Part shown: positions 20,659 to 49,806 of the stretch, piece by piece
Position numbering within the stretch: the first letter of the stretch is position 1
How the letters are laid out: every line of letters begins with the position of its first letter
Assembly (NCBI GenBank): GCA_006226595.1
Contig: SBGP01000092.1
Span: 62,001-126,000 of the forward strand
DNA: 64,000 nt
Origin: Deltaproteobacteria bacterium
GTDB taxonomy: Bacteria; Myxococcota_A; UBA796; GCA-2862545
Direction: 5' to 3'
Notes under the pieces: model-generated
Database searches by the model: none
What the model saw: only the letters and a program-made list of their open reading frames with translations
Told to the model about the DNA's origin: nothing
Made by a program: the position numbers and the translations under genes

Positions 20659-21327
20659 TCAGTTCTTGTTCTGGACGCGTCGGAACGGGTGCAGGAAGCC
20701 CGCGAGCGCCGGCGCGTTGCGGGTCTGGATCCACAGCCGGCCGGTGCCCGAGAACTGGCACACCAGGCCCTCGGACGAGAAGAACAGGCTCTTGAGGCCG
20801 CCCGACTTGCGCACCTGGAAGGTGAGGCTCTCGTCGAAGGCCACGATGTGGCTGGTGTCGACCGTGTAGCCGCCCTGGACGTCGACCTGGTGGATGGCGC
20901 CGTAGGAGCTGATCCACAGGTCGCCCTGGCCTTCACAGCGGAGCATGATCAGCCCTTCGCCGCCGAAGAAGGTCTTGGCACCGCCCCACTTCGCGCTGAC
21001 CTCGATACCCGGCGTGCTCGCGAGATAGGACCCGCGCTGCACGACCACGGCACCGCTCACCGGGATGTGCTCCATGTCGCCGGGCTGGGAAGGCGCGACG
21101 TCGAGTCGCTGGCCCGCCCCGGTGCCGGTGTAGGTGTTGAGGAACACGCTCTCGCCGCCCAGGGCGCGCTTGGCGGCGCCGAAGATGCCGCCCTGCATGT
21201 TGGTGTCCATCTTGAGCGCGGGGTCCATGCCCATCATCGCGCCCGCCTCGGTGACCACGGCCTCGCCCTCGTCGAGGAGGACGTGCAGGGACGCGAAGTC
21301 CGGCTTGTTGCGAATCTCGTGCTGCAT
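20659..21327 (-). CDS. AIM24-family protein, paralogue 1
   Basis: A 222-residue protein of the AIM24 (TIGR00266) family, a beta-barrel-like fold found widely in bacteria with no settled biochemical role. Repeated short strands and the motifs FGGEGLIMLR, VDTSHIVAFDESLTF and GRLWIQTRN are shared with the two paralogues upstream. There is no signal peptide, so it is cytoplasmic. It is the third gene of a three-gene operon and starts 9 bases after paralogue 2, with AGGAGG upstream. It ends with a basic FRRVQNKN tail that the others lack. Confidence 0.85.
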   Translation of the reverse strand: MQHEIRNKPDFASLHVLLDEGEAVVTEAGAMMGMDPALKMDTNMQGGIFGAAKRALGGESVFLNTYTGTGAGQRLDVAPSQPGDMEHIPVSGAVVVQRGSYLASTPGIEVSAKWGGAKTFFGGEGLIMLRCEGQGDLWISSYGAIHQVDVQGGYTVDTSHIVAFDESLTFQVRKSGGLKSLFFSSEGLVCQFSGTGRLWIQTRNAPALAGFLHPFRRVQNKN

Positions 21328-21336
21328 CGCTTCCTC

Positions 21337-22029
21337 CTATGCGCGGGGCGGCAGCTTGCCGCCGATGAGTTCACCGAAGCCCTGGGGATTCCGGGTCTGG
21401 ATCCACAGCTTGCCGGTGCCGGAGAAGCGGCACACCAGGCCCTCTCCACCGAAGATGAAGGCCTTGATGCCGCCCCCGAAGCGCGTCACCTTGAAGGTCA
21501 GGCTGTCCTCGAAGGCCACGATGTGGCCGGTGTCGACGATGTACTCGCCCTCGACGTCGATCTCTCGGATGCCGCCGAACGAGTTGAACACCAGGGGGCC
21601 CGTGCCGCTCGCCTTGAGCATGATCAAGCCCTCGCCGCCGAAGAAGGACTTGGCGCCGCCCCACTTCGCGTCGATCTCGACGTCCTTGCCGCTGCACAGG
21701 TACGCCGTGGACTGGAGCACCATGGTGTTGCCTGCCAGGTCGCACTGGACCACGTCGCCGCAGTGCGTGGGCGCGAAGGTGACCTCGCCCGCGCTACCCT
21801 CGGCGGTGAAGTGGTTCTGGAAGAAGGACTCGCCGGCCACCATGCGCTTTAGGCCGCTCATCAGGCCGCCGAGCAGGCCTTGGCCCTCCTTCTTCTTGGT
21901 GGTGGTCTCCATCTTCACGTGGGTGTCCATGGAGACCATGGCACCACCCTCGGCGACGACGGTCTCGCCGGGCTGAAGGTGGACGACGGCCAGCGCATAG
22001 GCGGGCCCGTGCTGAATATCGATGTTCAT
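21337..22029 (-). CDS. AIM24-family protein, paralogue 2
   Basis: A 230-residue AIM24-family protein, middle gene of the operon. It is the closest relative of paralogue 1 here: FFGGEGLIMLK, VDTGHIVAFEDSLTF and GKLWIQTRN match almost letter for letter. A Lys-rich loop (TTTKKKEGQ) near residue 45 and the following GLLGGLMSGLKRMVAGESFF segment are its own. The ATG at 22029 has AGGAGGGCC upstream and lies 8 bases after the stop of paralogue 3. Biochemical role unknown; a homo- or hetero-oligomer with its neighbours is plausible. Confidence 0.85.
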   Translation of the reverse strand: MNIDIQHGPAYALAVVHLQPGETVVAEGGAMVSMDTHVKMETTTKKKEGQGLLGGLMSGLKRMVAGESFFQNHFTAEGSAGEVTFAPTHCGDVVQCDLAGNTMVLQSTAYLCSGKDVEIDAKWGGAKSFFGGEGLIMLKASGTGPLVFNSFGGIREIDVEGEYIVDTGHIVAFEDSLTFKVTRFGGGIKAFIFGGEGLVCRFSGTGKLWIQTRNPQGFGELIGGKLPPRA

Positions 22030-22037
22030 CGGCCCTC

Positions 22038-22736
22038 CTACGGCAGAAGCGGGGTGATCCAGGAGATGAAGCTCCCGAGGTTTCGAGTCTGCAGCCAGAG
22101 CGTGCCCTTGCCCTCGAACTCGAGCACGAGGCCCTCGCCGGAGAGCAGGGTGGACTTCCAGCCGCCGACGCGCTTGGCGCGGTGCTTCACGTCCCCTTCG
22201 AAGGCGACGACGTGCCCGCTGTCGACGACGTACTTGCCGTCGAGCTCCATCTTCTCGATGGCGCCGTAGGCGTTGATGAGCAGCTTTCCGGCCTTTCCTC
22301 GGCACTTGAGGAAGAACGCGCCCTCGCCGTTGAACAGCATGGAGAAGCCGCCCCACACGAGCTCGACGTCGACGTCCGGGGTGGACGCGAGGTAGCTGGA
22401 GGCCTGGACGGTGATGGCCTTGCCCTCGGCCATGTCGACCTCGACCACGTCGCCGACGAGGGAAGGCGCGAGCATGACCTGCTGCCCGTCCTCGCGCGCC
22501 TTGAAGTGGTTGACGAACATCGACTCACCCGCGAGGAACTTCCGTGCGAGGCCAGCGAGCGCCGCCTTGAGGAAGCCCACGAAGCCGCTCTTTCCGGCGC
22601 CGTTGAAGGTGGTGTCCACGAGCACGCCGGTCGACATCGCGACCATCGCCCCGCTCTCGGCAATGAGCTTCTCGCCCTTGCTCATGGTGACCACCGCCAT
22701 CCCGTAGGACGGGCGGGAGTCCAACTCGATCTCCAT
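22038..22736 (-). CDS. AIM24-family protein, paralogue 3
   Basis: A 232-residue AIM24-family protein and the first gene of the operon. It is the most diverged copy: the FNGEGAFFLKC and VDSGHVVAFEGDV segments replace the motifs of the other two, and the tail is SFISWITPLLP. The start at 22736 (MEIELDSRP) is chosen because GGAGGA lies directly upstream and the N-terminus then matches its paralogues. The frame stays open far upstream through a tandem repeat, but that extension has no family likeness. Confidence 0.83.
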   Translation of the reverse strand: MEIELDSRPSYGMAVVTMSKGEKLIAESGAMVAMSTGVLVDTTFNGAGKSGFVGFLKAALAGLARKFLAGESMFVNHFKAREDGQQVMLAPSLVGDVVEVDMAEGKAITVQASSYLASTPDVDVELVWGGFSMLFNGEGAFFLKCRGKAGKLLINAYGAIEKMELDGKYVVDSGHVVAFEGDVKHRAKRVGGWKSTLLSGEGLVLEFEGKGTLWLQTRNLGSFISWITPLLP

Positions 22737-27570: not shown

Positions 27571-27948
27571 CTACAGCGCAGCGAGAGCCGAGGGCGACAT
27601 CGCGCCGACGCGCACCGCGGCGATCTGACCGGCGCGGATGACGACGGTCGTCGGCGTCGCCATCACCCCGAAGGCCTGGGCCGTGTGCATGTCCTGGCTC
27701 ACGTCGATGATGCGGGCCTTGTCGCCGAGCGCCTCGACGGTGGGCTTCATCGCGCGGCACGGCGCGCAACCCGGCGCGTGGAACCACACGATGACGTCGC
27801 CCTTCACCGCATCCCCGAGCTCGCCCGGCAGCGCGGGAGCGGGTTGCCCCTCGGACTTGCGTGCGGCCCGCTGGGCCAGGAACTGGGTCACCGTCGACAG
27901 CAGCACGAGGCTGACGATGAACAGGAAGATCTGGGTGCCGAGACTCAT
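27571..27948 (-). CDS. Membrane-anchored thioredoxin-like protein
   Basis: A 125-residue protein with one N-terminal membrane helix (about 5-25) and a thioredoxin-fold domain. The active site is CAPC in FHAPGCAPC near residue 58, and the cis-Pro loop is ATPTTVV. With the N-in orientation expected for such an anchor, the catalytic domain is more likely periplasmic, but the topology is not certain. Its ATG overlaps the anti-sigma factor stop as ATGA. Last gene of the sigma/anti-sigma operon; a role in resetting the anti-sigma thiols is tempting but needs the domain to be cytoplasmic. Confidence 0.85.
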   Translation of the reverse strand: MSLGTQIFLFIVSLVLLSTVTQFLAQRAARKSEGQPAPALPGELGDAVKGDVIVWFHAPGCAPCRAMKPTVEALGDKARIIDVSQDMHTAQAFGVMATPTTVVIRAGQIAAVRVGAMSPSALAAL

Positions 27949-28196
27949 TCTCGCTCCCTGGCGAGGCGCGCGTCGAGGCGCGCCATCACGCCCGCGCCGA
28001 GCTCGACGGGAACCGCGGCGCGAAGCTGGTGGACCACGCGACCGTAGGCCTCGCCGAAGGCCGCGCAGTTGTTGCATCCCTGGACGTGGGCGGTGACCGC
28101 CGTGAGCTCGGCCGGCCCGAGCAGGCCATCCATGTAGCGGTCGAGTCCCTCGAGCACCTGGCTGCAGCGCAGCCCTCCGATGGTTCGCTCATCCAT
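27945..28196 (-). CDS. Zinc-finger anti-sigma factor (zf-HC2/ZAS type)
   Basis: An 83-residue cytoplasmic protein with the ZAS zinc motif H-x3-C-x2-C (HVQGCNNC, about residues 33-40) and a conserved upstream Cys in RCSQVLE near residue 11. It has no membrane segment, unlike many anti-sigma factors, which fits RsrA-type redox sensors. It should bind the ECF sigma factor encoded directly upstream, with which it overlaps by 8 bases; the thioredoxin gene overlaps its own end by four. Confidence 0.85.
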   Translation of the reverse strand: MDERTIGGLRCSQVLEGLDRYMDGLLGPAELTAVTAHVQGCNNCAAFGEAYGRVVHQLRAAVPVELGAGVMARLDARLARERE

Positions 28197-28740
28197 GGGC
28201 CCCTCCTTCGCGAAGCTCGCCCATGAGGCGAAGTCGCGCCCGGTGAAGTCGCACGCGCACCGTGCCTGCGGCGAGCCCGAGCTCTTCGGCCAGCTCACTC
28301 GGCGCCATGCCCTCGAGGTCGCAGCGAGCGAGGACCTGCTGGTCAGCGTCGGGAAGTCGCGCCAGCGCCTCGAGCAGCTGGACGCGGTCCTCCGAGCGCG
28401 ACGCGGCGCACTCCGGGTCGCAGCCCCAGCCGGCACGGAGGCCGAGCTCGTCGAGGGACTCGGTCGTACGGGGCTCTCCGGCACGCCGACGCCAGGTCCT
28501 CGCCGCCTGACGGCGTGCCACGCCGTACAGCCAGCTCTTCGCGTGGCTCGGGTCCTCGACCTGGTCCCGGCCGCGCCAGGCAGCCAGGTAGGTCTCCTGC
28601 AGCGCTTCTTCCGCGGCCTGCTCGGTCGCGGTCAACCGCCGCAAGAGGCCCCACACCGCAGGCGTGGTCTCGGCGACGAAGTGGTCGAAGGCCTGACCAT
28701 CGACGAGCGGACTCGCCGACTCCGGCACGTCCGAGGTCAC
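28189..28740 (-). CDS. ECF-type RNA polymerase sigma factor
   Basis: A 183-residue ECF sigma factor. Region 2 spans about residues 20-85 (with AEEALQETYLAAWRG and SWLYGVARR) and region 4 about 120-178 (ALARLPDADQQVLA, then the SELAEELGLAAGTVRVRLHRAR helix-turn-helix). The GTG start at 28740 overlaps the stop of the DUF2892 gene as GTGA, so it is translated with it. Its target promoters are unknown; a possible own promoter lies at 28984-28997. Confidence 0.9.
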   Translation of the reverse strand: MTSDVPESASPLVDGQAFDHFVAETTPAVWGLLRRLTATEQAAEEALQETYLAAWRGRDQVEDPSHAKSWLYGVARRQAARTWRRRAGEPRTTESLDELGLRAGWGCDPECAASRSEDRVQLLEALARLPDADQQVLARCDLEGMAPSELAEELGLAAGTVRVRLHRARLRLMGELREGGAHG

Positions 28741-28946
28741 TCCTTCGGCAGCGTGGAGACGCCCAGCACCGTGTAGATGGGGCAGCTGCCGAGCACGCCG
28801 GTGGCGATGGGCACCAGGCCAATCAGTCCCGCCAGACCCCAGCCCGGCACCGGGCCGACGACGAGCAGGGAGAGAAGGCCCACGCCGGCAACGACGCGAA
28901 AGCCGCGCTCGATCGGGTGCTCGTTCTTGGGAAGCATGTCGCCCAT
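28737..28946 (-). CDS. DUF2892 (YgaP-like) inner-membrane protein
   Basis: A 69-residue protein matching DUF2892, the membrane part of YgaP-type rhodaneses. It shows NEHPIERGFRVVAG, a first helix, WGLAGLIGLVPIATG, then GSCPIYTVLG with the family Cys. No rhodanese domain is attached. The ATG at 28946 has GGAGG upstream. First gene of the four-gene sigma operon. A membrane sensor or sulfur/redox-linked role is possible, but nothing in the sequence proves it. Confidence 0.8.
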   Translation of the reverse strand: MGDMLPKNEHPIERGFRVVAGVGLLSLLVVGPVPGWGLAGLIGLVPIATGVLGSCPIYTVLGVSTLPKE

Positions 28947-28983: not shown

Positions 28984-28997
28984 CCTGACAGGTTCCA
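28984..28997 (-). promoter_or_regulatory. Candidate ECF promoter element and dyad of the sigma operon
   Basis: Upstream of the DUF2892 gene on the minus strand, GGAACC (28992-28997) fits the -35 element of many ECF promoters. It overlaps an 11-base dyad, ACCTGTCAGGT (28984-28994). A matching -10 was not clear. Autoregulation by the operon's own sigma factor is inferred. Confidence 0.35.
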
Positions 28998-29033
28998 GGT
29001 CGCGGTGGCAGCGTTACCGAAAAAGTTCAACCG

Positions 29034-30476
29034 CTACTCGAGCTGCCCCTGCAGCTTGAGAAGCTCGGTCTGAGCGATACGATAGTCGGTGCGCGCCTTC
29101 GCTGCGTCGGCCTTCTTGCGCTCGACGTCGGTGCGAGCCTCGAGCACGTCCTTCTGGATCGCGCGTCCCGCCTCGGCCTTGGCCTCCTCCGCGGCGAGAG
29201 TGGCCTCGGCGAGGCGCAGGTTCACGTCCGCGAGCTCCATCTTCTCGCGGGCCGAGCTGAGCTTGTCGACCTGCAGTGCTGTCTGCGACGCGACACTGCG
29301 TTCGAGCTCTTCCACGGACAGCTGCCGCCCCCGCGCGGCGGCCGCGGCGCGCTTGGACTCGCCACGAGCCGCGCGATTGCCGAGCGGCACGGACAGGTTG
29401 CCCGAGAACGACAGGTTGCTCGTCGGTGCCCACTCGGGCTGCCAGCCCGGATCCGCGCCCTGCGGTGGCACCAGGTTCTCGGACGCACCGAGGTTGGCGC
29501 TTGCGGTGACGGACAGCTCGGGAAGCGTGCCGTGCTTCGCGTTGCGCATGTCGACCACCGCGGCATCGGCGTTCGCACGCGCCACCGCGAGGTCCAGGTT
29601 CTGCGCGAGCGCGACCTCCACCGCCTTCGCCCGGTCGATGGTGAGCACCGGTACCTCGCCGACCTCGGTGGCCGGCAGCAGCTCCTGGCCCGGCAGCTCG
29701 CCCATGAGCAGCAGCAGGCTGTCCGCGGCCTGGTCCGCGCCCTGCTCCGCCTCGAGCGCGTTGATGCGCGCCTGGACGAGCGCCGCCTCGAGCCGCGTCT
29801 TCTCGACCTCGGCGAGCTCACCGGTCTCGACCCTCAACATGCCGATGCGCAGCGCCTCTTCGGCGACCTCGACGCTCTCGTGCGCGATCTCCGCGAGCTC
29901 GACCTGGTACACCCAGGTCCAGTACGCCGACGCCGCCTGGGCCAGCGTGTCCTGGCGGGTCTTCTCCAGCGAGAGCTCGGCGATGGTCATGCTGTTGCGC
30001 GCCCGCGTGACCTGCTGGAGGTTGTACGAGAGCCGGTGCCCCTTGAGGATGTTCTGGGTGATGCTGCCGCGGAACGAGCGCTGCCAGGCATCCGCCTCGT
30101 TGTCGGGGATGAGGTCGTACTGGGTGAGCGAGTTGCTTCGGGTCACCGAAGCGCCCAGCGAGTACCGCGTACCCGACAGCATCTGCCCATTCACGCCGAG
30201 ATCGCCGTTGAGGTTCGTACCGCTGTTCTTGTAGTTGAGCGGGTCGAAGGCCACGCGGGTGAACTGGGCCCACGTACCGGTCGCGCTCAGGCTCGGGTCG
30301 AAGATGCCGCGCGCCGAGATCAGCGACGCCTCGGCCTCGGACAGCGACAGCTGCGACGAGGTGAGCTGCGGATTGTTCGCCAGCGCGCCCTTCAGCGCCT
30401 CGTCGTAGGTCAGCGGGCGCTCGGCGAGCGCCGTCGCCGGCAGGAACAGGGCGGTTGCGAGCAGCAGCCGCTTCAT
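29034..30476 (-). CDS. TolC-family outer-membrane efflux channel
   Basis: A 480-residue outer-membrane factor of the TolC family, the exit duct of a tripartite pump. A signal peptide (about 1-18) is followed by long coiled-coil helices with Ala/Glu/Lys repeats (for example around 170-230 and 400-478), as in TolC. There is no lipobox. Its ATG overlaps the stop of the RND gene upstream as ATGA. It is the last gene of the adaptor - RND - RND - channel operon. GGAGACC lies upstream of the start. Confidence 0.88.
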   Translation of the reverse strand: MKRLLLATALFLPATALAERPLTYDEALKGALANNPQLTSSQLSLSEAEASLISARGIFDPSLSATGTWAQFTRVAFDPLNYKNSGTNLNGDLGVNGQMLSGTRYSLGASVTRSNSLTQYDLIPDNEADAWQRSFRGSITQNILKGHRLSYNLQQVTRARNSMTIAELSLEKTRQDTLAQAASAYWTWVYQVELAEIAHESVEVAEEALRIGMLRVETGELAEVEKTRLEAALVQARINALEAEQGADQAADSLLLLMGELPGQELLPATEVGEVPVLTIDRAKAVEVALAQNLDLAVARANADAAVVDMRNAKHGTLPELSVTASANLGASENLVPPQGADPGWQPEWAPTSNLSFSGNLSVPLGNRAARGESKRAAAAARGRQLSVEELERSVASQTALQVDKLSSAREKMELADVNLRLAEATLAAEEAKAEAGRAIQKDVLEARTDVERKKADAAKARTDYRIAQTELLKLQGQLE

Positions 30477-33400
30477 GCGGTCTCCTTGGTGCCACGGACG
30501 AAGGCCAGCCACGAGTAGAAGCCGGAGCGCACGTCGACGAGCAGCGCGTACAGGAAGGGAATGAACAGCAGCGTGAGGATGGTCGATGCGACCATGCCAC
30601 CGATGACGATGCGACCGAGCGGCGCATACGGAATGCCGATGAAGCTCGAGCTGCCCACGGACATCGGGATCAGCCCGCAGATCGTGGTCAGCGCCGTCAT
30701 CAGGATGGGCCGCAGGCGCCGACGGCCGGCCTCGACCAGGGCGAGATCGCGGTCCATGCCCTCGCGGATCAGCTGTGTGACCAGGTCGATGAGCACGATG
30801 CCGTTGTTGACGACGACGCCGACGAGGATCACCAGGCCGATGCCCGCCATCATGTCCATCGGCGTGTTGGTGAGCCACAGGCCCCACCACGCACCCATCA
30901 TCGCCATCGGAATCGTGGTGATGATGGTGATCGGGATGAGGTAGCTCTCGAAGAGCACGCCCATGAGCAGGAACACGAACACGATGGAGAGCAGCATCGC
31001 GAGGTTCCGCGCCTGGTCGTCCTCCATCTCCATGGACCACTCCTGGCCCTTGCCCACGCGGTAGCCGCGGGGGAGCTTCATGTCCGCCATGGCCTCGTCG
31101 AGCGCGGAGTAGGCCTCGAACACGGACAGCTCGTCCGAGAGGTCCACGCTCACCGAGAGGCTGGTCTCGCGGTCCTCGCGGCGGATGGACGACGGGCCCT
31201 TGCCGACCTCGGTGTCGGTCAGCGCGCGGATCGGCACGAGGCGCATCAGCGACGGTGACCACACGGGATGGTCGAGCAACGCCTCGAGCGTGGCCCGGTC
31301 TTCGAGGGCGTAGCTGCTCTGCACGCCAATCTCGCGCTGGTCGGCGAGCTGCAGCGACGGCAGGCGGTTCGCCCGCATCGCCCACGACACGTTGCCTCCC
31401 ACCGTCTGGGCGTTGAGGCCGTAGCGCGCGAGGCTCTCGCGATGCACACGCAGGCGGATCTCGGGCGCGCCGGTGTTCTCGAAGTCGAGGTGCGCGGCGA
31501 GCACGCCCTCGACGGTCTCGGCACGGCGCACCACCTCGCGGGAGAGGTCCACGAGCGTCGCCATGTCCTCGCCGCTGACGCGCAGCGTGGCGGTGTTTCC
31601 GCCGCTGCCGCTGCCACGACGACCGCCTTCCCAGCCGATCTGGGCGGTCACGCCAGCCACGTCGTCGGGCAGGCTCTTCTTGGCATCCTCGATCACCTTG
31701 TCGCGCGGCACCGTGGCGCCCTCGGCTCCGAGGTACACGTAGATCTGGCCGCGGGTGGAGTCCGAGGACAGGCGCGAGCGGTACACGCGCACGCCCCAGT
31801 CTTCGCGGTGGTCCTCGACGTACTGCTCGAAGGTCTCGACGATGTCGTAGCGCTCGCGGAGGCTCGCCTCGGGCGGCACCGAGAACCGGATGCGGAAGTC
31901 GTTGAGGTTGCCCTGGCTCTCCCCGCCCTCCGGCGCGTTCTTGAACGGCACCTGGTACGTGAGCACCGCGAAGATCGCGAGCAGCACCGCCGCATCGACG
32001 CGATGGGCGAGCACCCAGCGCATGGCCGCGGCGTAGCTGTCGGTGAGCCACACGAGCCAGCGCGCGTCGGGCTGGACCTCGGCGGCGCCGACGAGACGGG
32101 TCGCGAGCGGCGCGAAGTAGGTCGCGACGAGCAGCGACGCCGCGAGCGCGAACACGACCGGCAGCCCGAGCACGCCCATGAAGAACGAGAACTCGACGCT
32201 CTCGGACATCAGGATCAGCGGCAGGAACACGACCATCGTCGTCAGCGTGGACATGAGGATGGCGAGGTTGACCTCGCTCGAGCCCTCGACGGCCGCCTCG
32301 CGCATGCCCGCGCCTTCCGCACGCCGTCGGTAGATCGTCTCGATCACGACGATGGCGTTGTCGACGACCATGCCCACCGCGAGCATCAGCCCCATCATCG
32401 ACAGCAGGTTCATCGTGTCGCCGCGGAAGTACAGCACACCGATGGTGATGAGCAGCGAGAACGGGATCGACAGCGCGATGAGCAGCGTCATCCGCCACTC
32501 GCGCAGGAACAGGTAGAGGATGATCACCGCGAACACGCCGCCGGTGAGCATCGTGTTCTGCAGCGTGTCGACGCTTCCCTCGACGAGCTCGCCCTGGTTG
32601 AAGAACGTGAAGAACTCGGCGCCTTCGAGACGCGGGTCCTTCTGCAGCTCCTCGAGCACGGCGATCACCGCCTTGCTCACCTCGACGGTGTTGGCGGTGC
32701 TCTCCTTGCGAATCGCGAGGGCCACGCCGTCCTGGCCGGCGATGCGGTTGATCGAGCTCGAGTAGGCGCTCCGGAGCTGCACATCCGCGATGTCCGCGAG
32801 GACGACGCCCTCCTTGACCGGGAAGCGCCGCAGATCCTCGACGCTCTCGAGGCGCGCCAGCGAGCGCACGTAGAGCAGCTCGCCATGGTCGCGCAGCTTT
32901 CCGCCCGCCATCTGGAAGTTGTCGGAGGACAGCCGCCGCTGCACATCGCCGAGGTTCACGCCGTGGGCGATGACCTTCTCGCGGTCGTAGTCGATGTACA
33001 CGCTGCGCTGGGGCAGACCCCACGAGTCGATGGCCGCCACGCCGGGGATCCGCTGTAGCTGCGGCTCCACGATGCGACTCATCACGTGGTACGGGTCATC
33101 GACGTCCTCGGGTAGCGACACGCCGGTCCACAGGATCGGCTCGTCGTCGGGGTTGTACTTCCAGATGAAGTAGCGGTCGACGCCCTCGGGAAAGCCGACG
33201 AGCGCACGCTCCATGCGGTCGACGACCGCGTTGTACGCGACGTCCATGTCGACCGACGAGTGGAACTCGATGCCGATGCCGGCGCCGTCATTGTCGGCGT
33301 TCGAGGTGAGGGTCTTGATGCCGGGCACCGTGCCCAGCTGCGCCTCGACCTCCCGCACGATCTCCTCGTCGACCTCGAGGGGACTCGCACCGGCGTAGGA

Positions 33401-33556
33401 CACGCGAACCCAGAGGAAGCGCGGCTCGAAGCCCCGCGGCATCATCTGCAGCGGAATGCGTGACTGGGCGATGAGCCCCACGACGAGCAGGGCCACGAAC
33501 AGCATCAGCGCCGTGACCGGGCGGTCGTAGGCGATGGCCGGGAGCCAGCGCCTCAC
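30473..33556 (-). CDS. RND efflux pump subunit, HAE-type, normal length
   Basis: A 1027-residue RND transporter of the hydrophobe/amphiphile efflux group. The N-terminus has the first helix followed by IPLQMMPRGFEPR. TM4 has GMVVDNAIVVIETIYRR with the proton-relay Asp followed by Asn, where AcrB has two Asp. The second half repeats the RND pattern. Its start overlaps the stop of the longer RND gene by four bases, so the two subunits are made in a coupled fashion and may form a hetero-trimer, as in MdtBC. Confidence 0.9.
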   Translation of the reverse strand: MRRWLPAIAYDRPVTALMLFVALLVVGLIAQSRIPLQMMPRGFEPRFLWVRVSYAGASPLEVDEEIVREVEAQLGTVPGIKTLTSNADNDGAGIGIEFHSSVDMDVAYNAVVDRMERALVGFPEGVDRYFIWKYNPDDEPILWTGVSLPEDVDDPYHVMSRIVEPQLQRIPGVAAIDSWGLPQRSVYIDYDREKVIAHGVNLGDVQRRLSSDNFQMAGGKLRDHGELLYVRSLARLESVEDLRRFPVKEGVVLADIADVQLRSAYSSSINRIAGQDGVALAIRKESTANTVEVSKAVIAVLEELQKDPRLEGAEFFTFFNQGELVEGSVDTLQNTMLTGGVFAVIILYLFLREWRMTLLIALSIPFSLLITIGVLYFRGDTMNLLSMMGLMLAVGMVVDNAIVVIETIYRRRAEGAGMREAAVEGSSEVNLAILMSTLTTMVVFLPLILMSESVEFSFFMGVLGLPVVFALAASLLVATYFAPLATRLVGAAEVQPDARWLVWLTDSYAAAMRWVLAHRVDAAVLLAIFAVLTYQVPFKNAPEGGESQGNLNDFRIRFSVPPEASLRERYDIVETFEQYVEDHREDWGVRVYRSRLSSDSTRGQIYVYLGAEGATVPRDKVIEDAKKSLPDDVAGVTAQIGWEGGRRGSGSGGNTATLRVSGEDMATLVDLSREVVRRAETVEGVLAAHLDFENTGAPEIRLRVHRESLARYGLNAQTVGGNVSWAMRANRLPSLQLADQREIGVQSSYALEDRATLEALLDHPVWSPSLMRLVPIRALTDTEVGKGPSSIRREDRETSLSVSVDLSDELSVFEAYSALDEAMADMKLPRGYRVGKGQEWSMEMEDDQARNLAMLLSIVFVFLLMGVLFESYLIPITIITTIPMAMMGAWWGLWLTNTPMDMMAGIGLVILVGVVVNNGIVLIDLVTQLIREGMDRDLALVEAGRRRLRPILMTALTTICGLIPMSVGSSSFIGIPYAPLGRIVIGGMVASTILTLLFIPFLYALLVDVRSGFYSWLAFVRGTKETA

Positions 33557-36500
33557 GTCGCGACCTCCGCGGGCTCGTCGGCCACCGGGACCACGCGGGT
33601 CCGCAGGCTGTGCAGCGCCCCGTAGGCCGCCGGAATCACGAGCAGCGTGAGCAACGTCGACGACAGCAGGCCGCCGATCACGGTGAGGGCCAGCGGCTGC
33701 TGGATCTCGCTACCCGCCCCGAGTCCCAGGGACAGCGGGAGCAGCCCGAGCACGGTGGTCGCCGTGGTGATGAGGATCGGACGCAGGCGCATCGCCGCGC
33801 CGACCCGCAGGGCCTCGTCCACGTCCATGCCTTCGACGATGCGGCGATTGACCGTGTCGACGAGCACGATGGCGTTGTTCACGACGACGCCCGCGAGCAC
33901 GATCATGCCGATGAACACGACCACGCTGATCGGCATGCCCAGGGGCAGCAGCGCGGCGACGACGCCGACGAGCGCCAGGGGCACCGAGCCGAGGATGATG
34001 AACGGGTGGAGCAGGCTCTCGAAGGTGCTCGCCATGATCACGTAGACCAGGAACACGGCGAGGAGCAGGGCGAAGCGCAGCGAGGACAAGGAGTCCTGCA
34101 TCTCGGTCGACTGGCCGGCCATGCGCCAGGTGAAGTCATCGCCGAGATCGGCCCCGCGCATCGCGTCGGCGATGAGCGACGAGGCGCTGCCGAGGTCGAA
34201 GCCCGCGAGGTTCGCGGTAATCACCACGGCCCGCTGCTGGTCGACGCGACGGATCTCGCTCGGACCCTCGACCTCTTCGACGCTGGCCACCGCGGCGAGC
34301 GGGATCGGCGGGATGAGGTTCGGGTTGATGTTGATCTGCTGCAGATCGGCCAGGCTCGCGCGATCGCGCACGTCGAGCTGCACCTTGAGGTCGATGCGGC
34401 GGTCGCCACGGCGGATCTGGGTCGCGGTGACGCCCTGGATCTTGTCACGCACGCGGGCGGCCACGGTCGCCGGGTCGAGGTTGAAGCGCTGCAGACGGTC
34501 GCGGTCGTAGCGCACGAGGATCTCGGGGTGGCCGCGCACGAGGCTGCTGCGCACATCGCGCATGCCGTCGACAGCGGCGATCCGGTCGGTGACCTTGTCG
34601 CCGGCCTCGCGCAGTCGCTTGAGGTCCCAGCCGAAGACGACGACCTCGACGGGGGTGGCGAACGAGAACAGCGCCGGACGCGCCATCTTCACCTGGAGCT
34701 TGGGCAGGTCGGCGAGCGCGATGCGCAGGTCCTCCATCACGCGAGCTTCCTGCTCGGCGATGCGACCACTGGACACGAGCTGCACGCGCAGGCGACCGGA
34801 GTGCTCACCCTCGTCAGCACCCGCGTCCGCACGGTTGTCCGCGCCAATCTGGGTGTAGACGCTGGCGACCTCCGGGTGCTGGCGCACGATCTCCTCGGCC
34901 ATGCGCAGCACCTTCTCGGTGCGCCCGAGCGGCGTGCCCACGGGCATCGCGGCCTCGACCGTGAACCGGCCCTGGTGCACCTCGGGGATCAGCTCGGAGC
35001 CGAGGATGCGCGCGCCGCCCAGCGAGAGCACGAAGACCAGTGCGGCCGCGAAGAGCACGCCGAAGCGCCCGTTCAGCGCCCGCCCGAGCACGCGGCTGTA
35101 GCGGTTCTCCACCCGTCCGTACACGGACTGGAACGCGTTCGCGGCAAGCATCGCGCCCGCGGCGAGCGGCCGGAGCACCTGCCCCGCCACCCACACGACG
35201 ATGCGGCTCACCCAAGCGCTGCCGAGCAACGCCGTGTACAGGCCCAGCCCGGCGCCGAGCAGGAACAGCGCTCGCGCCCACAGGTAGGGGAACATCGCCC
35301 GGCGCCAGAGCTTCTCGCGCGCCCAGGCCGCGCTCTCGGCATAGCCCTCGCGCACCGGCTGCACGGCGAGCCGCTTGAGCGCGGTCACGAAGCCCTCGCC
35401 CTGGAGCAGCGCCGCAAAGAAGCCCTCGGCCTCGACCCCGTCGGACATGCCCCCGCGTGCCGCCATCGTCGGCACCGCGAACAGCGCGACGGCGAGGCTC
35501 GCGAGCAGCGAGGACACGACCGCGAGCGCGAGGTCTCCGAACAGCTGGCCGGCCACGCCCTCGACGAAGGTGATCGGGAAGAACACGGCCACGGTGGTCA
35601 GCGTGGATGCGGTGACCGCGGCCGCGACTTCCTGCACACCGAGGACCGAGGCCGTGACGCGGTCCTTGCCCTCTTCGGTGAAGCGCTGGATGCTCTCGAG
35701 CACGACGACCGCGTTGTCGACGAGCATGCCGACGCCGAGCGCCAGGCCGCCGAGCGACATCAGGTTCAGGGTCACGCCGGTGAGGTAGAGCGGCGCGAAG
35801 CCGATGACCACGGACATCGGAATGGCGATGCCGATGATGCGCGTGGACCGGAAGTCCTTGAGGAACAGGAACAGGATGACGATGGCGAGCACGCCACCGA
35901 GCAGGGCCGTCGAGAACAGGTTGTCGATGGCGGCTTCGATGAACTCGGCCTGGTTGTCCAGCACCGCGAGGTGCACGCCGTCCGGGAGCTCACCGATGAT
36001 GCCCGGATCGCCCGGAAGCCCGAAGCCGACGGAGGGCGTGCCGTTGAGCGCGGTCATCACCTCGGCAGCGACGGAGACCACGTTGGCATCGGCCTCCTTG
36101 AACACTTCCAGCTCCACGGCCTCGGAGCCGTCGAGCAGGCTGACGACCTCGCGCTCGCGGTGGCCTTCGGTGACGCGCGCCACTTCGTCCAGCCGGATGG
36201 TCACGCCGTCGCTGCGGCGGATGGCGAGGGCCTTGAGCTCGTCGAGGTCCCGGTACTCGTTGAGCGTGCGCACCAGGTACTCGGTGTCGCCCTCGAGGAT
36301 CGAGCCGCCGGCGAGGTTGATGTTCTGGGACGACAGGGCGCTCTGCACTTCGGAGAGCTGCAGCTTGCGGGCGCCGAGCCAGTCCTCGCGGACTTCGATG
36401 CGAATCTCGCGCTCGAGACCGCCACGCACACGCACCGCCGCGACGCCCTCGGTGGACTCGAGGCGTCGCTTGATGTCGTCCTCGGCGATCTCGCGCAGGC

Positions 36501-37029
36501 CGACCAGCGCGGTCTCCGGGTTGGCGTCCGGATCGTCGACGGCCACGGCGATGCGCAGGAACGGGTCCAGGCTCGGGTCGTAGCGAAGGATGAGCGGACG
36601 ATCGACGCCATCGGGAAGGAAGGTCGTCTGGAGGTTCTCGCGGACAGTCTGCACCGCCGCGGACATGTCGGTGTCCCAGCCGAAGCCAAGCACGACGTCC
36701 GACGAACCCGCGCGGGAGCGGCTCTCGAGCGTGACCAGGCCATCGAGCGTGGCGAGCGCCTCTTCGAGCGGACGACTCACCTGGTTCTCGACCTCGCCGG
36801 GGGCAGCGCCCTCGTAGGTCGTGCGTACGGTGATGGTCGGGTAGCCGATGTCGGGCATCAGCTCGATCGCCAGCCGCTTGTAGCTGACGTAGCCGAAGAC
36901 CAGTGCGGCGAGGAAGATCATCGACACCGCGACCGGATGGGTCACGACGTGGAGGAACAGACCTCCGAGATCGGGCAGACCACTGCCGCTGGCCGCCTCG
37001 TCGCGGCCCTGGGGCGTGGGCTCGCTCAC
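33553..37029 (-). CDS. RND efflux pump subunit, HAE-type, with central insertion
   Basis: A 1158-residue RND transporter, roughly 120 residues longer than usual. It has ELMPDIGYPTITVRT near the start and the TM4 motif GMLVDNAVVVLESIQRF. Extra sequence lies between the two halves (about residues 545-690) and includes Trp-rich hydrophobic stretches (FPYLWARALFLLGAG, VSRIVVWVAGQVL) that look like additional membrane segments. The GTG at 37029 overlaps the adaptor stop as GTGA, with GGAGG four bases upstream. Confidence 0.9.
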   Translation of the reverse strand: MSEPTPQGRDEAASGSGLPDLGGLFLHVVTHPVAVSMIFLAALVFGYVSYKRLAIELMPDIGYPTITVRTTYEGAAPGEVENQVSRPLEEALATLDGLVTLESRSRAGSSDVVLGFGWDTDMSAAVQTVRENLQTTFLPDGVDRPLILRYDPSLDPFLRIAVAVDDPDANPETALVGLREIAEDDIKRRLESTEGVAAVRVRGGLEREIRIEVREDWLGARKLQLSEVQSALSSQNINLAGGSILEGDTEYLVRTLNEYRDLDELKALAIRRSDGVTIRLDEVARVTEGHREREVVSLLDGSEAVELEVFKEADANVVSVAAEVMTALNGTPSVGFGLPGDPGIIGELPDGVHLAVLDNQAEFIEAAIDNLFSTALLGGVLAIVILFLFLKDFRSTRIIGIAIPMSVVIGFAPLYLTGVTLNLMSLGGLALGVGMLVDNAVVVLESIQRFTEEGKDRVTASVLGVQEVAAAVTASTLTTVAVFFPITFVEGVAGQLFGDLALAVVSSLLASLAVALFAVPTMAARGGMSDGVEAEGFFAALLQGEGFVTALKRLAVQPVREGYAESAAWAREKLWRRAMFPYLWARALFLLGAGLGLYTALLGSAWVSRIVVWVAGQVLRPLAAGAMLAANAFQSVYGRVENRYSRVLGRALNGRFGVLFAAALVFVLSLGGARILGSELIPEVHQGRFTVEAAMPVGTPLGRTEKVLRMAEEIVRQHPEVASVYTQIGADNRADAGADEGEHSGRLRVQLVSSGRIAEQEARVMEDLRIALADLPKLQVKMARPALFSFATPVEVVVFGWDLKRLREAGDKVTDRIAAVDGMRDVRSSLVRGHPEILVRYDRDRLQRFNLDPATVAARVRDKIQGVTATQIRRGDRRIDLKVQLDVRDRASLADLQQININPNLIPPIPLAAVASVEEVEGPSEIRRVDQQRAVVITANLAGFDLGSASSLIADAMRGADLGDDFTWRMAGQSTEMQDSLSSLRFALLLAVFLVYVIMASTFESLLHPFIILGSVPLALVGVVAALLPLGMPISVVVFIGMIVLAGVVVNNAIVLVDTVNRRIVEGMDVDEALRVGAAMRLRPILITTATTVLGLLPLSLGLGAGSEIQQPLALTVIGGLLSSTLLTLLVIPAAYGALHSLRTRVVPVADEPAEVAT

Positions 37030-38387
37030 CCCTCCTCCCCGGCCTTCTCCTCGCCTTCGGCCTTGGCCTCGGCAGCCCGCTGGGCCTTGAGCTCGGCCTT
37101 CTTCTCGGGCGTGAGGATGGGCGCGCCATCCCGCAGGTTGGACTGGCCGACGACCACGATCTCGTCGCCGACCTTCACGCCGTCGAGCACCTCGACGTAC
37201 TCGGCATCGGTGAGGCCGACCTCGAGGGCCACGCGCTCGGCAATCCACGGGGACTTGAGCGGCGGCTCCTTGTCCTCGTCCTCACCGCCGCCCTTTCCGC
37301 CGCCACCCATGCCCGAGAGGGCCCGGCGCGACGAATAGCGCTTGCTGCGACGTCCCTGATCCCCACCGCCGTCCGCGTCCGCGGAGGCATCCTCGCCATC
37401 CTCGCCCTTACCGTCATCCTCGGGCGCCAGCGCCTTGCGGTACACGATGGGCTCGCCGTCCTCGTAGACGACCGCGCGGCGAGACACGACAGTCACGTCC
37501 TCGTGGCGGTCGACCTCGATCTCGACGCTGACGAACTGGCCGGGGCGCAGGGTGGCCTGCCCCTCGTCGATGGCGATGGTCACGCGGAAGGTGCCGCTGG
37601 AAGCATCGATGACCGGCGACACGCGCTCGACCTTGCCCCACGCGAACAGGTCCTCGTCGTAGGCGCTGACGAGGCGCGTCTTCTGACCGACGCTCACCCG
37701 GGCGACATCGCGCTCGGGCAGGCTGGCGACGACGCGGAGCGCGTCGAGATCGACCACCGAGAACGCCGTGGTGCCGCTGCTCGCGAGCTCACCGACCTTG
37801 ACCCCGCGCGAGGCGACCACACCGTCGAAGGGCGCGGTGAGGCGCGTGTTGCCGTAGCTGCGCGACGCCTCGCGCAGCGAGGTCCGGGCGGTGGCGAGCT
37901 GGTACTGAGCGTCCTCGAGCTCACGCTGCGAGATCGCGCCACGCTGGTACAGCTGCTCGAGCTCGCCGGTCTGGGCCTCGAGCTTGGTGACCTCGGCGCG
38001 CGCCCGCTCGGCGGAGGCATCGAGACTCACGTTCTCGATCACGGCGAGCAGGTCGCCCTTCTTGACGACGTCGCCCTCGTCCTTGTGGATCGAGAGAACG
38101 ACGCCCGTCGCGCTCGGCACGAGGTTCGCCGATCGCTCGCTCTCGACGAGGGCGCTGGTGAGAAGCAGCTCGGACACGCCGCTGGTTCCGACCTCGGAGA
38201 GCTCGACGACGGTGGCGGGCTCGACGCTGGACTTCTTGCCGCCCCAGCCGCCGCGCCCTCCGCGTCCGCCGCCCCATTCGTCGCCTCCGTCCCCGCCCAT
38301 CGAGCAGGCGAGCATCGAGGCTACGGCCAGCCCGGCGAGTGGAACGGCGACGAGGCGCCAGACCCGGTGAAGTGAAGACGAGGACAT
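37026..38387 (-). CDS. RND periplasmic adaptor (membrane fusion) lipoprotein
   Basis: A 453-residue adaptor protein with a lipobox MLAC at about residues 25-28. A Gly-rich stretch (about 31-50) precedes the usual domains: a lipoyl-like LVPSATGVVLSIHKDEGDVVKKGD segment in two parts, a coiled-coil hairpin (about 105-150), LTAPFDGVV, and a beta-barrel. Between the barrel and the last domain is a polar, Gly/Asp/Glu/Lys-rich insertion of some 60 residues (about 325-385). The tail is Lys/Glu/Ala-rich. First gene of the four-gene pump operon. Confidence 0.88.
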   Translation of the reverse strand: MSSSSLHRVWRLVAVPLAGLAVASMLACSMGGDGGDEWGGGRGGRGGWGGKKSSVEPATVVELSEVGTSGVSELLLTSALVESERSANLVPSATGVVLSIHKDEGDVVKKGDLLAVIENVSLDASAERARAEVTKLEAQTGELEQLYQRGAISQRELEDAQYQLATARTSLREASRSYGNTRLTAPFDGVVASRGVKVGELASSGTTAFSVVDLDALRVVASLPERDVARVSVGQKTRLVSAYDEDLFAWGKVERVSPVIDASSGTFRVTIAIDEGQATLRPGQFVSVEIEVDRHEDVTVVSRRAVVYEDGEPIVYRKALAPEDDGKGEDGEDASADADGGGDQGRRSKRYSSRRALSGMGGGGKGGGEDEDKEPPLKSPWIAERVALEVGLTDAEYVEVLDGVKVGDEIVVVGQSNLRDGAPILTPEKKAELKAQRAAEAKAEGEEKAGEEG

Positions 38388-47621: not shown

Positions 47622-48191
47622 GTGAAGCGCACCTGGACCATCTTCGGCATCGTGGCTCTCGTCGGGGTCATCCTCGACCAGGCAACGAAGATCTGGATCG
47701 TGAGCAACCTCGAGTACCGGGTCGACAGCATCGACATCATCCCGGGCCTCTTCCAGCTCGTGCATGCCCAGAACCCCGGCGCGGCCTTCGGGTTCATGCG
47801 CAACATGCCGGTGAACGCCCGCGTGGCGCTGTTCCTGTTCTTCACGGTCATCGCGATGGGCGTCATCCTCGACATGGTCCGCAAGCTCAAGGACACCGAC
47901 AAGTTCATGCCCGTCGTGCTCGGCATGATCTTCTCGGGTGCCATCGGCAACGCCATCGACCGCATCCACAAGCAGACGGTGACGGACTTCCTGCGCTTCT
48001 ACACGGACAACCCCGAGTGGATCGCGACGCTGCGCAGCTACAACCTGCCGCCCGAGTACCCGAGCTTCAACGTCGCCGACATCGCACTCGTCGTCGGCGT
48101 GCTGATGTTCGTCGTCCATTCCTTCCTCGAGAAGGACGAAGCGCCCGAGAGCAACGGCGCGCCCCCCGAGGCCAACGGCGCCGAGGCCTGA
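47622..48191 (+). CDS. lspA: Lipoprotein signal peptidase
   Basis: A 189-residue signal peptidase II that removes the signal peptide from diacylglyceryl-modified prolipoproteins at the inner membrane. Family motifs are present: LDQATK near residue 18, NPGAAFGF near 51, and the catalytic Asp residues in GNAIDRI and FNVADIAL. Four membrane helices are expected. A short charged tail rich in Glu/Pro/Ala extends the C-terminus. The GTG start has GGAGG upstream. First gene of the lspA-lgt-lgt cluster. Confidence 0.95.
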   Translation: MKRTWTIFGIVALVGVILDQATKIWIVSNLEYRVDSIDIIPGLFQLVHAQNPGAAFGFMRNMPVNARVALFLFFTVIAMGVILDMVRKLKDTDKFMPVVLGMIFSGAIGNAIDRIHKQTVTDFLRFYTDNPEWIATLRSYNLPPEYPSFNVADIALVVGVLMFVVHSFLEKDEAPESNGAPPEANGAEA

Positions 48192-48211
48192 CGCCGCGCT
48201 GAGGAGCCGGC

Positions 48212-49006
48212 GTGCATCCCTGGCTGGTCTACTCGGAGAGCCTCCAGCTCCCGACCTACTTCACCTGCCTCATGGTGGGCTTCGCCCTGTCGCTCGCCTT
48301 CGTGCGTCGCGAGGCCCAGCGTAGCGGCTTTGCGCCCAAGGTCGTGCTCGACGCCGCGTTCTGGCTGCTTCCGGGCGCGCTGATCGGCGCACGCCTGGCT
48401 CATGTCGTGCTCGTCGACCCGCAGACCTACCTGCGCGACCCGTGGATGGCCATCGTGCCCACCGGCGGCTGGGTGTTCTACGGGGGCTTCCTCGGCGGCC
48501 TCGTCGCGGGCTGGCGCTATGCCTCGCGTCGCGGGCTCTCCTTCGCGGAGCTCGCCGACTGCTACGTCATCGCGATTCCATTCGGCCTCATCTGGGGCCG
48601 GCTCGGCTGCCTCGGCGGCGGGTGCTGCTTCGGGCGGGCGGCGGACTTCCCGTTCGGCTGGCCCGTGCCGTGGAGCGTGACCTACACCGCGCGCGGGCAC
48701 CTGCCGGACGAGTTCCTCGCCATGCCCCTGCACCCCGCCCCGATCTACGCGATGCTCCACGCCGCGTGGCTCGTGCTCGCCATCGGCTGGGTCCGCCGCC
48801 ACCAGACGTTCCGCGGCGAGGCGATGGTCGCGTTCATCGCCCTGTACGGCGTGGGTCGCTCGGTGCTCGAGGTGTTTCGGGCCGATGCGTCTCGCGGGCT
48901 GTACTTCGGCGGGTGGCTGTCCACGTCACAGATCATCGGTCTCGGCACCGCGGCCCTGGCGTTCGCGCTATGGGCGGCGAGGAGGCGCGCATCCATCCCG
49001 TCCTGA
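48212..49006 (+). CDS. lgt: Prolipoprotein diacylglyceryl transferase, copy 1
   Basis: A 264-residue Lgt, which attaches diacylglycerol to the lipobox Cys of prolipoproteins. The central signature reads GRLGCLGGGCCFG, the Cys-rich form seen in many non-enteric bacteria. VFYGG replaces the HGG-type segment, and the C-terminal YGVGRSVLEVFR keeps the essential Arg/Glu pair. The GTG at 48212 has GAGGAG upstream and lies 20 bases after lspA. The unusual loop FPFGWPVPW follows the Cys signature. Confidence 0.93.
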   Translation: MHPWLVYSESLQLPTYFTCLMVGFALSLAFVRREAQRSGFAPKVVLDAAFWLLPGALIGARLAHVVLVDPQTYLRDPWMAIVPTGGWVFYGGFLGGLVAGWRYASRRGLSFAELADCYVIAIPFGLIWGRLGCLGGGCCFGRAADFPFGWPVPWSVTYTARGHLPDEFLAMPLHPAPIYAMLHAAWLVLAIGWVRRHQTFRGEAMVAFIALYGVGRSVLEVFRADASRGLYFGGWLSTSQIIGLGTAALAFALWAARRRASIPS

Positions 49007-49806
49007 TCGACCTTCCCGGGCTCCCGCTCCACAGCTACGGCATCCTCGCGGCCGTCGGCTTCGTACTGGTCGTGTTCCTCATCCTGCGGCGGACGGCGGC
49101 CCTCGGAATTCCTCGCGACCACGTCGTCGACATCATCTTCTACGGCGCGATCATGGGCATCGTCGGGTCCCGTGCCCTGTTCGTGTGGCAGAACCTCGAG
49201 CTGTTCGACTCCATCGGGCAGATGGTGAACATCCGCACGGGCGGACTCGTGTTCTACGGCGCGATGCTCGCGGGCCTGCCCACCGGCGCCTTCGTGATGT
49301 GGTACCGCGGTGTGCCCTTCTTCGCGCTCATGGACGTGCTCGCCACCGCGATGCCGCTCGGTCACGCCATCGCCCGCATCGGCTGCATCATGGCCGGCTG
49401 CTGCTTCGGACTGCCTACCGACCTGCCGTGGGCGGTGACCTACAGCCACCCCCTCGCCGTCGCACCGCCGCACGGCGTTCCGCTGCATCCGGTCCAGCTC
49501 TACGAGAGCCTGCTGCTCTTCGGCATCGCCGCGGTCACCAACCTCACCTACGCGAAGCGAAAGTGGGTCGGCCAGGGCATGTTCACCTACCTGCTGCTGT
49601 ACGCCATGGTCCGCTCGTTCACCGAGCAGTTCCGGGGCGACGCCTCGCGGGGCTTCTTGTTCGAGGACGTGCTCGGCCAGACGCTGTCGTTCTCGACGGG
49701 CATCTCGATGGCCATCGCGCTGATCGCGGTCGTGCTGTTCTTCTTCGTCGCGCGCCAGGTGAACCCGGAGCCTCCCGAGACGGGGAGCGCGCCACGACCG
49801 GCGTGA
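48970..49806 (+). CDS. lgt: Prolipoprotein diacylglyceryl transferase, copy 2
   Basis: A 278-residue second Lgt, overlapping copy 1 by 37 bases in another frame. It has HSYG near the N-terminus, VFYGAMLAG, the signature ARIGCIMAGCCFG, and YAMVRSFTEQFR. The ATG at 48970 is the nearest standard start but has no ribosome site. GAGGAGG (48979-48985) sits five bases before an in-frame ATC at 48991, which would start the protein at IHPVLIDLPG, matching typical Lgt N-termini. The true start is therefore open. Both copies keep the essential Arg and Glu, so both look active. Confidence 0.92.
   Translation: MGGEEARIHPVLIDLPGLPLHSYGILAAVGFVLVVFLILRRTAALGIPRDHVVDIIFYGAIMGIVGSRALFVWQNLELFDSIGQMVNIRTGGLVFYGAMLAGLPTGAFVMWYRGVPFFALMDVLATAMPLGHAIARIGCIMAGCCFGLPTDLPWAVTYSHPLAVAPPHGVPLHPVQLYESLLLFGIAAVTNLTYAKRKWVGQGMFTYLLLYAMVRSFTEQFRGDASRGFLFEDVLGQTLSFSTGISMAIALIAVVLFFFVARQVNPEPPETGSAPRPA

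Follow-up and report, generated by a model that had tools for sequence, protein, structure and literature searches.

A conserved operon of DUF2892, an ECF sigma factor and a soluble zinc anti-sigma factor with a likely self-directed promoter

Pairs of ECF sigma factors and zinc anti-sigma factors are well known, and in the SigR/RsrA system the regulatory loop is closed by thioredoxin (PMC5472188). The cysteine at position 11 of RsrA is required for its redox release (PMC4960319). According to a survey of more than 10,000 pairs, the zinc motif occurs in approximately 56 percent of class I anti-sigma factors and in 72 percent of the soluble ones, and it is argued to be often structural; RsiW carries the motif, yet binds its sigma factor without zinc (PMC7406223). 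In E. coli, YgaP combines a rhodanese with a DUF2892-type transmembrane domain and has been linked to thiosulfate, cyanide and thiocyanate (PMC4730233). DUF2892 proteins occur widely and little is understood of them. A sigma factor dedicated to one of them would be of use, as the inducer of such an operon could help to show the purpose of DUF2892. No description of an operon consisting of DUF2892, an ECF sigma factor and a zinc anti-sigma factor was found in the open literature, although a numbered group of the published ECF classification may exist for it.

The operon described here lies within a 64,000-nucleotide stretch of DNA from a Deltaproteobacteria bacterium, referred to as the window. 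A sequence-only reading of the window had named the four products as DUF2892, ECF sigma factor, ZAS anti-sigma factor and thioredoxin, and these identities are confirmed by scores above the Pfam cut-offs for all four (Table 1). The sigma factor belongs to the ECF class, with no sigma regions other than 2 and 4 and a TIGR02937 score of 86.2 compared to a cut-off of 42.9. The first product matches the YgaP-like transmembrane family, but it is not a YgaP, as its short chain does not include a rhodanese. The third belongs to the zinc anti-sigma class, with HxxxCxxC in an anti-sigma domain and a gene that overlaps the sigma gene by 8 bases; by eye it has no transmembrane stretch, and a single-sequence AlphaFold2 model gave four helices with a mean pLDDT of only 65. 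The thioredoxin has a CxPC active site and a cis-Pro loop (ATPTT) in its PF00085 domain. In terms of gene overlaps, the values of 4, 8 and 4 bases given by the earlier reading hold if the sigma gene starts at GTG 28740, where AAGGA directly abuts the start codon. An in-frame GTG at 28728, which was picked by a simple gene caller, results in an 8-base gap to DUF2892 instead, and because of this ambiguity the first overlap is uncertain.

Table 1. Positions of the operon, its genes and its predicted functional sites in the window.
Feature	Position	Strand	Details
Four-gene operon	27571-28946	minus	all four genes on this strand
DUF2892 / YgaP-like transmembrane protein, gene 1	28737-28946	minus	69 aa; PF11127 61.3 bits (cut-off 25.3)
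ECF sigma factor, gene 2	28189-28740	minus	183 aa; PF08281 Sigma70_r4_2 50.9 bits, PF04542 Sigma70_r2 48.5 bits; linker motif ELGLRAGWGCDPE; recognition helix RVRLHRAR; alternative start 28728
Soluble zinc anti-sigma factor, gene 3	27945-28196	minus	83 aa; zf-HC2 29.5 bits (cut-off 22.2)
Membrane-tethered thioredoxin, gene 4	27571-27948	minus	125 aa; PF00085 40.5 bits (cut-off 23.5)
Anti-sigma Cys11 codon	28164-28166	minus	N-terminal zinc ligand, equivalent to RsrA Cys11
Anti-sigma His37-x3-Cys41-x2-Cys44 codons	28065-28088	minus	other zinc ligands
Thioredoxin active site	27757-27768	minus	Cys61-Ala-Pro-Cys64
Upstream promoter box (-35 type)	29012-29019	minus	CGGTAACG; predicted sigma target; equivalent to GAAYCC in most relatives
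Downstream promoter box (-10 type)	28990-28996	minus	GGAACCT; 15 bases past the upstream box

The stop codon of an outer-membrane efflux gene, at 29034, lies approximately 87 bases from the operon, and beyond this gene an RND pump operon continues on the same strand (29034-38315). This efflux operon was considered as a possible partner, but in the relatives with listed neighbours it does not adjoin the DUF2892, sigma and anti-sigma genes (the triad). Other features of the window include an RND-type transporter gene, named by eye, with a CusB-like fusion protein that contains heavy-metal-binding domains (PF19335; 9345-13860, minus strand), three AIM24-family genes in tandem (20659-22736, minus strand), and a signal peptidase II gene after which come two prolipoprotein diacylglyceryl transferase genes that differ from each other and overlap by 37 bases (47622-49806, plus strand).

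A starting search found the anti-sigma in 44 of 141 relatives at an E value of 0.001, and tblastn searches of the relatives' loci showed that the genes for DUF2892, sigma and anti-sigma recur together while the thioredoxin gene recurs far less often. A profile made from an 18-row anti-sigma alignment was then searched in 377 genomes of the window's phylum. Some match was obtained at 1e-7 in 153 of these, and the scores fell into two groups: 45 places, spread over 44 genomes, scored at least 60 bits, and the next match reached 50 bits. All 45 loci were fetched and read. DUF2892 was found on the same strand within 2.5 kb of the anti-sigma gene in 42 of them, and the plain order of DUF2892, sigma and anti-sigma with no intervening gene was found in 40. 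In one of the two exceptions DUF2892 comes last, after the anti-sigma gene (L074, genome G136), and in the other one gene intervenes (L078, genome G028). Of the three loci without DUF2892, L182 and L195 start right at the edge of a contig, and in the genome of L182 (G210) the DUF2892 gene and the start of the sigma gene were located on another contig. The third, L171, is the second copy in genome G373; there is space for DUF2892 but the gene is missing, with what reads as a degraded remnant of it. On these comparative grounds the conserved unit is the first three genes only, that is, DUF2892, the ECF sigma factor and the soluble CHCC zinc anti-sigma factor, which recur together beyond chance. 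Of the gene order whose lack of conservation the earlier reading had named as a refutation, the three-gene part is strongly conserved. The four-gene order is not conserved, and was rejected as the unit, since thioredoxin occupies the fourth position in only 4 of the 45 loci.

The sigma factors of the triad also form a group of their own. In a maximum-likelihood tree, 47 triad sigmas were separated from a sample of 25 other ECF sigmas with support of 100/97, and the linker motif was GWG or GFG in 43 of 47 complete sigmas. When the sigma factor was used as a single-protein query of the genome contigs, 22 ECF relatives with 24-35 percent identity were found, none of which is beside a DUF2892 gene according to the profile. 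Outside the window's phylum, 14 of 297 genomes of the Acidobacteriota, the phylum of a Bryobacterales locus, matched the anti-sigma profile at 1e-12. Four places, in four genomes, scored 85 bits or above and all four are full triads with DUF2892, while eight places read at 50-57 bits had other sigmas and no DUF2892 of the triad type (one weak match of 15.6 bits); three more places were outside this reading. None of the 398 genomes scanned from the phylum to which a Rhizobiaceae locus belongs gave a match. Among 198 genomes from that of a Maribacter locus there were no members, only four 50-53 bit matches with no DUF2892 alongside. Both scans score only some candidates per genome, so an empty answer does not amount to absence. 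Sigma and anti-sigma are in one open frame of 249 aa in genome G096 (L029, the same locus as L079), long open frames of 329 and 393 aa, which may likewise be fusions, extend over the anti-sigma in genomes G322 and G215 (L181 and L186), and behind the anti-sigma gene of L175 (genome G328) there is a frame, cut by the contig end, that by eye resembles the start of a metal P-type ATPase (85 aa, no match in Pfam).

The upstream regions of the triads show two boxes at a fixed spacing, which in the window fall between the outer-membrane efflux gene and DUF2892. The general form of this promoter is GAAYCC-N14-16-GRHHCY, and in the window's clade it is GGTAAYG-N15-GGAACYY. The motif was scored in the 46 upstream regions that had DUF2892 and at least 200 bases of sequence. 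The GAAYC-type motif was present in 29 regions in its strict form and in 35 in its loose form, and with three regions of the GGTAAYG type the total is 38 of 46, for a motif that was derived from the same loci. The scored motif is missing from the other 8 regions, several of which show near variants. In 200 dinucleotide shuffles of the same regions, the loose GAAYC form turned up in 1.1 of the 46 on average and in 4 at most, and the strict form in no more than 3. When the whole fetched upstream stretch was used, the strict set consisted of 30 regions, with a spacing of 15 in 22, 16 in 6 and 14 in 2. Given that the scored loci were also the source of the motif, weight was given to two checks that depend on them less. 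The second-phylum operons, which were outside the derivation, carried the promoter motif in three of four cases. The exact consensus GAATCCTTTT-N11-GRCTCT occurred at 7 places in the 377 genomes, compared to one place for a reversed control pattern, and 6 of the 7 precede a DUF2892-sigma operon, namely five known loci and the newly found half-operon of genome G210. The seventh is located before an unrelated lipoprotein-like gene (L220, 1501-1527, genome G216). The anti-sigma profile gave no member at 1e-7 in that genome.

In the window's genome and in a congener, the operon promoter alone is an exact match to the GGTAAYG form. The recognition helix RVRLHR is found in 3 of 49 sigmas, exactly the three with a GGTAAYG box; this co-occurrence counts as one event since the three sigmas are close relatives. 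Mismatch scans of the same two genomes revealed no wider regulon, as there was no excess over the reversed-pattern control (in the window's genome, 772 sites compared to 1127 for the control at up to three mismatches), and weaker targets are invisible to this test. In contrast to the SigR regulon, the promoter was not found in front of any oxidative-stress gene. The window's genome has a sole one-mismatch copy (G000:C65:61478-61507), approximately 94 bases before a lipoprotein gene (L082, 634-1407, minus strand), and this copy could be a second target or chance. A homologue of the lipoprotein (28 percent identity) is the divergent neighbour of a stand-alone membrane thioredoxin in genome G006 (L228). 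Overall, the sequences suggest that the sigma factor likely reads the two-box promoter and has a very small regulon, and because the promoter precedes 38 of 46 operons and the exact consensus is at the operon in 6 of 7 places, the most likely reading is that the sigma factor drives hardly anything beyond its own operon.

The anti-sigma has exactly three cysteines (11, 41 and 44), which with His37 form Cys-x25-His-x3-Cys-x2-Cys. The RsrA-type zinc motif noted by the earlier reading is therefore complete, and all 49 triad loci that were examined (the 45 and the four of the second phylum) have the CHCC ligands. Thiol sensing is plausible because all four RsrA-type ligands are present. The motif was rejected as proof of redox sensing. 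An N-terminal cysteine was also found in 19 of 20 non-member zinc anti-sigmas, a biased set that was mostly found with a profile favouring cysteine, and in the window's genome it occurs in two of the four that were read among five other zf-HC2 proteins. Since CHCC is the usual form among the zinc anti-sigmas examined, it is by itself no pointer to redox sensing. In addition, the anti-sigma scored 23.9 bits against a cut-off of 62.5 for the curated RsrA model (TIGR03988), and the sigma factor scored 47.9 bits against 251.55 for the curated actinobacterial SigH/SigR model (TIGR02947).

It may be that the zinc site is structural only and that DUF2892, in the membrane, is the input that tethers or releases the soluble anti-sigma as part of the regulator, but we consider this unlikely. 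It would fit with the soluble anti-sigma having no sensor domain, with the nearly constant presence of DUF2892, translated beside the sigma factor, and with the often structural zinc motif and zinc-independent binding described for RsiW (PMC7406223). However, DUF2892 comes after the anti-sigma gene in G136, one G373 copy lost DUF2892 and kept sigma and anti-sigma, and the N-terminal ligand cysteine, the residue that makes RsrA respond (PMC4960319), is found in every triad. The possible input role of a YgaP-type membrane protein raised by the earlier reading can be entertained, but the promoter evidence fits DUF2892 as an output at least as well. DUF2892 is the first gene behind the promoter, and every other conserved product has a regulatory fold; for the latter reason DUF2892 is probably the effector and, judging from these comparisons, the main output of the sigma factor. 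The DUF2892 family is a general one that shows this conserved Cys-Pro motif in other settings too, which was also counted against an input role.

A link of DUF2892 to sulfur is suggested by analogy to YgaP and by one relative. In genome G028, the product of the gene between DUF2892 and sigma (L078, 3602-4441, plus strand) is predicted to be a lipoprotein. It contains two rhodanese domains (PF00581, 142 bits), and an active-site loop reads CQSGAR. This operon and the rhodanese-transmembrane combination in E. coli YgaP (PMC4730233) speak for a response to reactive sulfur or cyanide, in which DUF2892 would act as the membrane partner in a YgaP-like sulfurtransferase pair, persulfidation would take place at the anti-sigma thiolates, and thioredoxin would clear the persulfide where it is present. 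Such a response seems quite improbable, as a rhodanese is found in only 1 of the 45 loci, the G028 rhodanese as a predicted lipoprotein would be on the opposite side of the membrane from that of YgaP, and the neighbourhoods inspected around other triads, mostly judged by eye, showed no sulfur genes.

Thioredoxin follows the anti-sigma gene in genomes G000, G001, G004 and G016; at L192 its presence is not judgeable, with only 126 bases left behind the anti-sigma. The four loci belong to one clade of five (support 97/85), and the remaining member, G020, is without thioredoxin. Among 21 genomes of the family, eight matched the thioredoxin, and four of these have it in the operon. The same membrane-tethered thioredoxin is found alone in G006, G008 and G011, with no triad in the fetched stretch, and G019 matched in the Trx domain only. 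In other triad loci the fourth genes are mixed (CBS, CorA, NTP transferase, phosphatase and others). From this distribution, thioredoxin seems to be a later addition in a few relatives. The window's thioredoxin has one N-terminal hydrophobic helix (residues 7-25), and all four operon thioredoxins have three to four Lys/Arg after the helix and none before it. By the positive-inside rule, the positively charged flank of a membrane helix is on the cytosolic side. Because the positive residues are C-terminal of the helix, the catalytic domain is predicted to be cytosolic, on the same side as the anti-sigma, and this placement behind the anti-sigma gene permits a feedback loop in the clade. That the four genes are a compact SigR/RsrA-type disulfide-stress loop with thioredoxin as the point of the operon is very unlikely: the CHCC ligands, the cytosol-facing thioredoxin with its intact CxPC, its start overlapping the anti-sigma gene in the window and in the congener, and its retention in four of five clade members despite 41-47 percent identity would fit, but it is confined to four loci, occurs alone in three other genomes, and both regulators are far below the NCBIfam cut-offs for the actinobacterial pair.

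The reading that we prefer, with a probability of roughly 0.55, is that the triad is a self-contained ECF switch whose main target is its own operon, with a thiol trigger, DUF2892 as the effector and thioredoxin as a clade-specific reset. We infer that the small soluble anti-sigma binds zinc and holds the sigma factor. If the anti-sigma is disabled, then the sigma factor would act at the promoter upstream of DUF2892, with its own operon as the one main target of transcription. This would result in more DUF2892, more sigma and more anti-sigma, and the rising anti-sigma would limit the response. The likeliest trigger would be oxidants, electrophiles, reactive sulfur or thiophilic metals that attack the CHCC zinc-thiolate site, as in RsrA, and in the window's clade the membrane thioredoxin could re-reduce the anti-sigma and so act as an in-operon reset. 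The closed redox loop of the sequence-only reading is retained in part, in the coupled sigma and anti-sigma genes, the RsrA-type ligands, the appearance of autoregulation and the cytosolic thioredoxin of the clade; the motif is not diagnostic and the four-gene order is not conserved, and such a loop is at best a lineage-specific elaboration. A broader and doubtful proposal is that this ECF family, in at least two phyla, makes DUF2892 on demand against reactive sulfur or thiol-reactive stress, so that the CHCC site would sense, DUF2892 (once with a rhodanese) would handle sulfur at the membrane, and thioredoxin would be the reset of one clade. The fixed promoter and the simple three-gene layout make the unit easy to rebuild in E. 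coli, and the thioredoxin clade is a natural test of zinc anti-sigma feedback that is wired within one operon.

Compared to known systems, the anti-sigma shares the class I anti-sigma domain with the SigL-RslA, SigW-RsiW and RpoE-ChrR pairs, which are of the HHCC type, but its N-terminal ligand is Cys and not His, and it has no membrane anchor and no cupin domain. In a phmmer search of solved chains, RsiW and ChrR were the only ones listed (E 0.14-0.44, not significant). The thioredoxin is similar to TrxA in its fold by sequence, its CAPC active site and its TPT loop, and differs in its N-terminal membrane helix and in its score of 46.7 bits against the TrxA equivalog cut-off of 96.8. DUF2892 is similar to YgaP in its family, and in one relative the operon includes a rhodanese; in contrast to YgaP, which is tied to sulfur and cyanide without a sigma factor, the rhodanese is unfused and is missing from the window's operon. 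SigR-RsrA of Streptomyces differs in that RsrA has four further cysteines and the window's anti-sigma has none, in that the SigR regulon has more than 100 genes (PMC5472188) and the promoter described here is nearly confined to the operon, and in the conserved DUF2892 first gene and the curated-model scores of the present pair. What the two systems have in common is an ECF sigma factor with a small soluble CHCC anti-sigma whose ligands are at positions 11, 37, 41 and 44 (PMC4960319), together with apparent autoregulation and thioredoxin as a possible reset (PMC5472188).
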